DNA from: Bacteroidales bacterium
GTDB taxonomy: Bacteria; Bacteroidota; Bacteroidia; Bacteroidales; F082
DNA length: 64,000 nt
NCBI GenBank assembly: GCA_028704385.1
Contig: JAQVLA010000009.1
Coordinates: 1-64,000, forward strand
Direction: 5' to 3'
This document shows, piece after piece, positions 1 through 991 of this stretch. The notes under the pieces were generated by a model. The model did no database searches. It had not been told where the DNA came from and saw nothing but the letters and a program-made list of their open reading frames with translations. The stretch's first letter is position 1. The number at the start of each line of letters is the position of its first letter. A program made the position numbers and the translations under genes.

Positions 1-51
1 GCAAGGCACAACGTTGTTGCATGCCAGAACTCATTAACAAACCCAAATTTT

Positions 52-120
52 GGAGGGGGTCAGTATGCCGGAATGGGGGGTCAGCTTGATCCGGAATGGG
101 GGGTCAGTATCGTCCGGAAT
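52..120. repeat. 23-bp direct repeats, probable insertion-sequence end
   Basis: A unit that begins CCGGAATGGGGGGTCAG starts at 68 and again at 91, exactly 23 bases apart. A third, broken copy starts at 114 (CCGGAAT only) and a partial copy lies before the first (52-67). Short tandem copies with a GGGGGTCA core are typical of the multiple terminal repeats of IS21-like elements in Bacteroidota; this identification is from memory. No istA or istB gene is in the window, so the body of any element would lie off the left edge. Confidence 0.5.
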
Positions 121-313
121 TTGCAATTATCAACTTGTTTGCTTACTTGCAAAATCATACAGCATTGAAAAATCGTTAAAGAAAAACGAGTTGTATTACC
201 GAAAAGAATCGTTCATTTATTGCATAAACACAGGATTGAGCCAAGAACTGAATTTTGATTTGAGTTTCAGACAAATCAAAACGGAATTGGCAACAATTTA
301 TAATGACCTTTAA
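119..313 (+). pseudogene. 3' remnant of an unknown gene cut by the repeat array
   Basis: An open frame continues from the last 23-bp repeat to a TAA at 311-313. The roughly 64 residues after the repeat look protein-like (lysine, tyrosine and isoleucine rich, ending ELATIYNDL), whereas the residues before 119 are simply translated repeat. The stop lies 11 bases before the next gene, a normal spacing for co-transcribed genes. I read this as the C-terminal end of a gene whose front was replaced by a mobile-element end. The family is not recognised. It could also be a chance open frame. Confidence 0.35.
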
Positions 314-324
314 AACCAAAAAAT

Positions 325-702
325 ATGGCACAACTAATTTTCGGGACAAAACAGCAAGTTCAATTTGCATCGGACAGCGAATTTTTTGAAGCACTTGGCT
401 TTCTCTCAAAAAATGACGGAACAACTTCTATTCATTGGGAACATAATGAAAATCAAGGTGCTTGGGGAAGTGAAGGAAGAATACATTGTTATCAAAACAT
501 TGATAACTTTCCTGCATATTTCAGCAATGCTTTTTCGGCAGGAGTAAATAATATTGTTCACAGGATTAACTGTAATGAATACATACAATATATCGTTACA
601 AATCACGGTTTTCAACTTGGACATAATCAAGATATAAATGCCATAACAGCGACAATTCCTGCACAATATTTGGCGGACTTTAATCGTGGACAAAATATTT
701 AA
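325..702 (+). CDS. Small protein of unknown function (125 aa)
   Basis: The protein has no signal peptide and no membrane segment. It is rich in Asn, Gln and aromatic residues, with a plausible soluble composition. ATG at 325 follows closely on the remnant ending at 313, so the two probably belonged to one operon. Base composition is more AT-rich than the housekeeping genes of the window, and the gene lies between a mobile-element end and two long hairpins, all of which suggests horizontally acquired DNA. I do not recognise the family. The stop codon is immediately followed by a series of inverted repeats (see 697-924). Confidence 0.6.
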   Translation: MAQLIFGTKQQVQFASDSEFFEALGFLSKNDGTTSIHWEHNENQGAWGSEGRIHCYQNIDNFPAYFSNAFSAGVNNIVHRINCNEYIQYIVTNHGFQLGHNQDINAITATIPAQYLADFNRGQNI

Positions 703-714
703 CAAACAACGCTT

Positions 715-780
715 TTGGTAGCACATTTTCATTTTTGCCAATCTCACAAAACCAAACAAAAAATGAAAAAGAGCTACCAA
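715..780. repeat. Long imperfect inverted repeat (hairpin 1)
   Basis: The left arm 715-737 and the right arm 757-780 are reverse complements at about 21 of 23 positions, with two mismatches and one bulged base, around a 19-base loop. The arms read TTGGTAGC...CATTTTTG and CAAAAAATG...GCTACCAA. The element lies just after the 125-residue gene. An imperfect stem with a bulged base is the usual form of integron attC sites and of some MITEs. Confidence 0.7.
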
Positions 781-845
781 GCCAACGCACCAACAAACGG
801 GCTGTCAAACAGGACGAAAAAGAAGGGCGAAGGCATAACAAATAA

Positions 846-914
846 GGCTTAAACGCAAACGTAAGCCTGCTTTTCCCTGATGCCTGTTGGACTCATTTGT
901 TTGCGATTTAAGCC
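846..914. repeat. Imperfect inverted repeat (hairpin 2)
   Basis: The arm 846-860 (GGCTTAAACGCAAAC) pairs with 899-914 (GTTTGCGATTTAAGCC) with a single bulged base. A smaller alternative stem exists within it (AGGCTTA at 845-851 with TAAGCCT at 862-868). It follows hairpin 1 by 65 bases. Together they make a structured non-coding block between the small gene and the transposase remnant. Confidence 0.65.
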
Positions 915-991
915 GATGTTGAACGGAACCACTTGGTGGGTCTATTATGGGGATTCAATACGGTGGAGGTAGTTGGGTCAGTAAGGTATCA

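Follow-up and report, generated by a model that had tools for sequence, protein, structure and literature searches.

Integrons are the best-known gene-capture machines, and the Bacteroidota, which include gut, soil, and aquatic bacteria as well as opportunistic pathogens, had been regarded as possessing almost none of them. The locus considered here raises the question of whether a structured repeat behind a small gene from this phylum is an integron recombination site (attC) and, if so, to which gene or element it belongs. The analysed stretch (the window) corresponds to the initial 64 kb of contig C18, which belongs to a 3.46 Mb genome assembled in 58 contigs. A preliminary description had proposed a single attC of 228 bp (697-924) directly after a 125-residue cassette gene, with two boxes read on the plus strand and enclosing two imperfect stems. 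In its core, the idea that a cassette gene is followed by a site of the attC type, this proposal is supported by stem covariation, by copies after different genes, by arrays, and by integrase remnants adjoining one array, whereas extent, boxes, and strand had to be redrawn: the attC-like object is 833-924 alone. Judged from comparative evidence, we consider it highly probable that 833-924 serves an integron-like system of Bacteroidota as a recombination site of the attC type, with a history involving an ISWz1-like element that is set out below.

The first box, ATTTAAC, is present at 697-703, where it shares bases with the stop codon of the 125-aa gene (open reading frame, 325-702, plus strand), and the second, GTTGAAC, exists as well but lies at 918-924, one base to the left of the position originally given (near 919-925). 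Both imperfect stems are real and exceed chance when folded as single-stranded DNA (697-785, z = -4.6 for the plus and -4.3 for the minus strand; 834-925, z = -2.7 and -2.5, respectively, each relative to shuffled sequence). A single site spanning 697-924 is excluded, as each hairpin represents a repeat family of its own, unrelated to the other and with its own set of copies in other genomes. Hairpin 1 (704-793, plus strand), formerly counted as part of the attC, is an inverted repeat in the cassette tail outside the attC, as indicated by its folding and by homologues that follow other genes in the genomes G038 and G036; in the latter genome it is located between the last gene of a restriction-modification (R-M) cassette and an intact attC. 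Hairpin 2 (833-924, 92 bp) is placed on the minus strand, where R'' is the reverse complement of GTTGAAC. Read in this direction, it consists of R'' (918-924, GTTCAAC, an exact match to the attC consensus), L'' (902-916), a loop, L' (845-860), and R' (833-839, GTTATGC, matching at six of seven positions). In plus-strand view, this corresponds to AAC at 837-839, arms at approximately 845-860 and 902-916, a single bulged base (A907), and GTTGAAC, the stem being formed by pairing of AAC-AAATA-AGGCTTAAACGC with GCG-A-TTTAAGCC-GAT-GTTGAAC.

A second copy of hairpin 2 in the same genome (G000:C8:3964-4067) is found directly 3' of an AlwI-type restriction-modification operon. Its homology to the window (819-969, 93 %) continues beyond GTTGAAC, since the terminus of an IS91-type element occupies 925-969. 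Copies of 834-930 are furthermore present in G167, in G161 (a genome from the genus of the source genome), and in G018, and a covariance model search detected relatives of hairpin 2 in 12 of 393 genomes of the order. Recurrence of the stem after various genes, named beforehand as support for a cassette array, is seen within this order: at 30 of 37 sites, a same-strand stop codon lies within 60 bp, with a different gene each time. A strict 20-mer scan returned three real and two chance matches from public genomes and zero matches from viral contigs. Across 14 sites, 19 double-changed cells were counted as compared to 7.6 after shuffling (0/500), one bulge is conserved, and the loop length differs from genome to genome; model R1, which has the site itself in its training set, scores 833-924 at 100.4 bits. 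The position after stop codons, on the strand of the gene, would also suit a transcription terminator or a REP-like repeat of 3' untranslated regions. Such a function is, however, most improbable in view of the missing U-run, the conserved bulge, the unpaired spacers, and the AAC/GTT boxes; no Rfam family scores above threshold for the hairpin, and this reading is already contradicted by the junction data described in the following, namely the complementarity of cassette ends and exact junctions in several contexts.

What, then, is the sequence that accompanies the hairpin? The stretch at 925-969 (minus strand, GGAACC...ATTATGGGGATTCAAT) recurs behind almost all hairpin-2 copies and represents what remains of the 3' terminus of an IS91-type element, the window retaining no more than this end. 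In L071, sequence of the same type runs into an intact Y2 transposase and integrase, and hairpin 2 lies at the 3' end of an intact two-gene element (termini GTTGAACTAAACCTCC and GGAGGTTCCGTTCAAC) that encodes a tyrosine integrase (334 aa) together with an IS91 transposase (387 aa) of the Y2 type that carries a zinc-binding domain (PF04986, 198.7 bits; PF14319, 109.2 bits). Relatives of this element on plasmids of Flavobacteriia are annotated as IS91 transposase plus tyrosine recombinase, and the hairpin at their 3' end is nearly identical from copy to copy. Gene pair and ends are shared with the ISWz1-type IS91 elements, which are linked to tet(X), aadS, and other genes in Flavobacteriia (PMC11322121, PMC9751785); unlike the transposon of these papers, the present element inserts in the R'' boxes of attC sites, has attC-like ends, and shows the build of an integrase-carrying cassette.

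The last point rests on the rule that in integrons the 5' end of a cassette (TT... after the G of the preceding R') is complementary to its own R'' box. On the element strand, R'' (GTTCAAC) is followed by the hairpin and then by G/TT (the slash marking the junction), while the other end of the element starts with TTGAAC; the element is thus built like a cassette, since its 5' end complements its own R''. Across the element from hairpin 2 lies the remainder of an attC; in L087, such an element instead has its 5' end behind an R' box. The preliminary description had regarded a constant association with an IS91-type end as incompatible with an attC. The association indeed exists, hairpin 2 being the 3' end of an IS91 plus integrase element, but it favours the attC reading because this element conforms to the cassette rule and has a cassette attC as its insertion site.

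The host site of the element is apparent from the aadS cassette. On plasmids of Bacteroides, Riemerella, and Empedobacter, this cassette extends from G/TTGTACGAC to GTCGTACAAC-ATC-GTATTGGC...GCCAATAC-GCGGCAC-G/TT, with an attC that is whole and fixed and with differing downstream sequences. Its left boundary is exact at G/TTGTACGAC in different plasmid contexts, and two aadS copies on one plasmid diverge abruptly to the left of TTGTACG, where only three more bases are identical. On Myroides plasmids, by contrast, the aadS attC is interrupted by the element at GTCGTACAA/C and reads GTCGTACAA/TAACTAAGC (hairpin 2), element, GTTCAA/CATCGTATTGGC. The comparison of occupied and empty sites implies that gene cassettes own an attC of another type (hairpin 3) and that the IS91 plus integrase element enters the R'' box of the latter. 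Our initial reading of hairpin 2 as the plus-strand attC of the upstream gene was dropped on this comparison, because the attC that belongs to the gene is situated on the far side of the IS91 element, whose companion hairpin 2 is. The occupied aadS site further indicates that the window presents the same situation with the element mostly deleted, in the order cassette, GGCATAA/C, hairpin 2, and element end (925-969). The 3' end of the gene cassette (824-839, plus strand, AGGGCGAAGGCATAA/C) accordingly forms the R'' arm of the attC belonging to this cassette, with the interruption following AA; homologous tails occur in the C8 cassette and in L022, a close counterpart of the window with gene, hairpin 1, AGGGCGAA, R'', and intact attC. 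By this comparison, 833-924 is the putative terminal attC of a mostly deleted ISWz1-like element inserted in the R'' box (GGCATAA/C) of a cassette attC.

IS91 elements possess structured ends, and hairpin 2 might merely be the replication-origin or terminator end of such a rolling-circle element, with a preference for gene ends accounting for its position. Its location at the 3' end in L071 and in Flavobacteriia, the near identity of the copies, and the presence of nearly all of them at an IS91-type end agree with this explanation, and a role in Y2 transposition is conceivable. We nevertheless judge it unlikely as an alternative to an attC: the insertion point (AA/C) falls into an R'' box, the complement of which is found where the upstream cassette begins, the other flank is the rest of an attC, the termini of the element follow the cassette rule, and one copy (L074, 3476-3578) is free of the element and has a perfect 8-bp R''/R' pair. 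The L074 site suggests that the hairpin-2 type can serve ordinary cassettes, too.

If the occupied sites are attC sites of gene cassettes, their family should be considered in its own right. Twelve hairpin-3 sites, picked by eye, were used to train a covariance model (R2), whose E-values are rough and which was applied to genomes that are mostly metagenome-assembled (MAGs). Compensated changes affect 13 of the 15 stem pairs of these sites, with 49 double-changed cells versus 18.7 after shuffling (0/500), and both hairpin families combine a conserved fold with extrahelical bases and a variable loop. In the source genome, R2 recognises 30 attC sites (E <= 0.01) in same-strand clusters on C50, C11, C37, C34, C55, C8, and C7, while the 64-kb window contains no further attC (no significant R2 match). 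R2 sites occur in 70 of the 173 genomes of the family, with at most 19 candidates scored per genome. They form arrays of different genes in one orientation: G167 carries 17 sites within 17 kb, the longest reading frame of array cassettes is on the attC strand in 36/36 cases (median cassette length 968 bp), and two G167 cassette genes recur in other families with 82 and 87 % amino-acid identity. A corresponding search for class 1 integron attC sites gave too few distinct sites for a covariance model. In another genome (L021, G038:C315, 1-17000), a same-strand array includes a type I R-M system, a helicase, and other genes, and its spacers contain two further repeat families (AATAAATAGGACTCTGAG... 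and CTAACACTAAGTCGAATAGCC...) that R2 does not match and that may be other attC subfamilies. On the Myroides plasmid p63039 (L150, 5980-20190), the resistance genes GNAT, OXA, MYO-1, and aadS follow in succession with attC-type sites between them (R2, 81-115 bits), and the tet(X2) tail is matched as well (60 bits).

The cassette rule was evaluated for both families. For hairpin 2, the predicted GTTnnnnnn is found upstream on the same strand at 12 of 30 testable sites as compared to 2.6 % of mismatched combinations, and none of 20,000 permutations was as good. For the array family, 59 pairs of consecutive attC sites (spacing < 6 kb) were examined at bases that had played no part in choosing the R2 training set. 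In 41 pairs, the own 5' end (G/TTnnnnnn) complements the own R'' at all six variable bases (mismatched pairs, 1.3 %), and in another five at five of six (mismatched pairs, 3.8 %); again, 0/20,000 permutations performed equally well. The complementarity reaches about 14 nt, with positions 11-14 of the cassette end matched in 60-86 % and position 10 in 0/35 pairs, where A usually stands against G. A hairpin-2 example is the C8 copy, whose R-M cassette starts with ...CTCG/TTAGCCGT and ends with ACGGCTAAC, with 3 kb in between. The 5' end of the window cassette itself is lost, and the counts for the rule rest on other copies; its start would be expected as TTATGCCTTC behind a G to the left of window base 1.

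A tyrosine integrase nearby had been named in advance as support for a cassette array. In the source genome, remnants of one do adjoin an array, preceding G/TTAGCCGT on C8; this genome showed two integrases of this type, C8:7162-7657 and C7:12892-13269, both of them broken, and no intact one. The C7 remnant is on the same strand as two attC sites (C7:118-2221), about 11 kb off. Standalone relatives of the integrase in G541 and G472 are positioned directly upstream of attC arrays and are co-directional with them. At L081, L082, and L086, the first cassette begins at G/TT, 21-92 bp after the integrase stop, with 8-9 nt matching the first R'', as in an attI adjoining its integrase gene; in the source genome, such a site is seen only beside a broken integrase.

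Among solved structures, the L071 integrase comes closest to IntI4 of Vibrio cholerae (2a3v), to which it aligns in two pieces flanking the patch. In known IntI enzymes, the patch grips the extrahelical base. All array-linked integrases have no IntI patch but keep the catalytic residues and a C-terminal SPLD-like motif, and their TIGR02249 scores amount to 124-177 bits versus a cut-off of 265. The common cassette and attC logic could also stem from a canonical integron that was acquired from Proteobacteria with a patch-bearing IntI and survives as a relic. This origin has very little probability, given that 0/13 genomes contain an integrase above the IntI cut-off, that every linked integrase is patchless, that the cassettes have other ends (14-nt arms in which one mismatch is invariant), and that arrays are spread through the family. 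The patchless integrases of L086 (G472:C1) and L081 (G541:C93) comprise 587-603 aa and possess a long N-terminal extension with a weak match to DUF5710; this extension, which is not seen in IntI, is possibly an additional DNA-binding part that replaces the patch.

Returning to the attC reading, a scenario can be proposed for which the sequences directly show the anatomy, the covariation, the cassette rule, the arrays, attC sites both with and without the element, and the linkage to integrases. Gene cassettes start with TTnnnnnn immediately behind a G and close with an R'' complementary to this start, followed by an imperfect hairpin (about 130 bp) that ends in G/TT. An IntI-type tyrosine integrase without a patch would join them at G/TT, presumably acting on folded single strands. 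The ISWz1-like element (integrase plus IS91 Y2 transposase) is itself cassette-built, with TTGAAC at its 5' end and GTTCAAC as R'', and would move by the integrase reaction rather than by its Y2 transposase. In the window, such an element probably inserted in reverse at AA/C, within the attC R'' box that belongs to the cassette with gene 325-702, and later lost its body. In a wider sense, the data probably reflect a large and largely unrecognised class of Bacteroidota integrons, in which a patchless integrase is read towards attI, cassettes have 14-nt ends with an invariant mismatch, integrase and IS91 transposase are packed in a mobile cassette that inserts into attC sites, and aadS with its neighbours as well as phage-defence genes are moved across the phylum.

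The proposed system shares with class 1, Vibrio, and other chromosomal integrons the R''/R' hairpins with bulged bases, the G/TT crossover point, a single cassette orientation, the complementarity of the cassette 5' end to its own R'', and an IntI-type tyrosine integrase. It differs from them in that the integrase is patchless, scores below the IntI model cut-off, and in some cases has a long N-terminal extension, in that the ends pair over approximately 14 nt except for position 10, which is invariably mismatched, and in its phylum. An integrase transcribed towards attI and in the direction of the cassettes is likewise known from the chromosomal integrons of Treponema (PMC3607928), from which the present system is distinguished by phylum, patchless integrase, other attC sequences, and IS91-borne relatives. 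As in CALINs, attC arrays that lack an integrase, most arrays found here, including those of the source genome, stand beside a broken integrase or none; in contrast to CALINs, intact patchless integrases adjoin arrays in related genomes. With IntegronFinder 2.0, only In0 elements plus one complete integron, in Salinibacter, had previously been found in Bacteroidetes (PMC9024848), and the clade-specific attC models of 2021 include none for Bacteroidota. Integrons of this phylum are almost unreported in open-licence PMC papers, and an earlier description elsewhere is possible.

Independent experimental support comes from Riemerella anatipestifer, in which integration of aph(3')-IVb requires no homology and includes a 5' UTR of 27 bp as well as a 3' UTR of 140 bp, the latter folding like an attC (PMC13148043, 2026). 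These observations fit the cassettes described here, and aph(3')-IVb very likely belongs to the same system, although no integrase, array, or cassette rule was reported in that study. Taken at face value, the sequences indicate that a putative integron-like system is widespread in Bacteroidota and also carries genes for antibiotic resistance and defence. If active, it would explain the transfer of aadS among Bacteroides, Riemerella, Empedobacter, and Myroides, supply an enzyme for the unexplained homology-independent integration in Riemerella, and add a cassette-borne reservoir of defence genes (R-M, TIR); it would also pose the mechanistic question of how a patchless integrase recognises attC.

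Some minor features of the cassette in the window deserve mention. No Pfam family scores above the cut-off for the 125-aa protein, and among 392 other genomes of the order, no more than three contain relatives. Eleven base pairs ahead of it ends another reading frame (120-313, plus strand), truncated and without a start, which probably is the first gene of the same cassette. The hairpin-1 family, perhaps a separate small mobile repeat, is characterised by direct CCAACGC boxes flanking a stem with two conserved A.A mismatches, and it is also located in cassette tails between gene and attC at L021 (7755-7821 and 10875, minus-strand view), L022 (283-375), and L073. At the left edge, the reading frame 120-313 is truncated by a repeated GGGGTCAGTATGCCGGAATGG motif (50-123, plus strand; copy at C8:77-123), which is probably an IS end. 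The motif sits at the start of both contigs, that of the window and C8, and may have broken both the assembly and the array.
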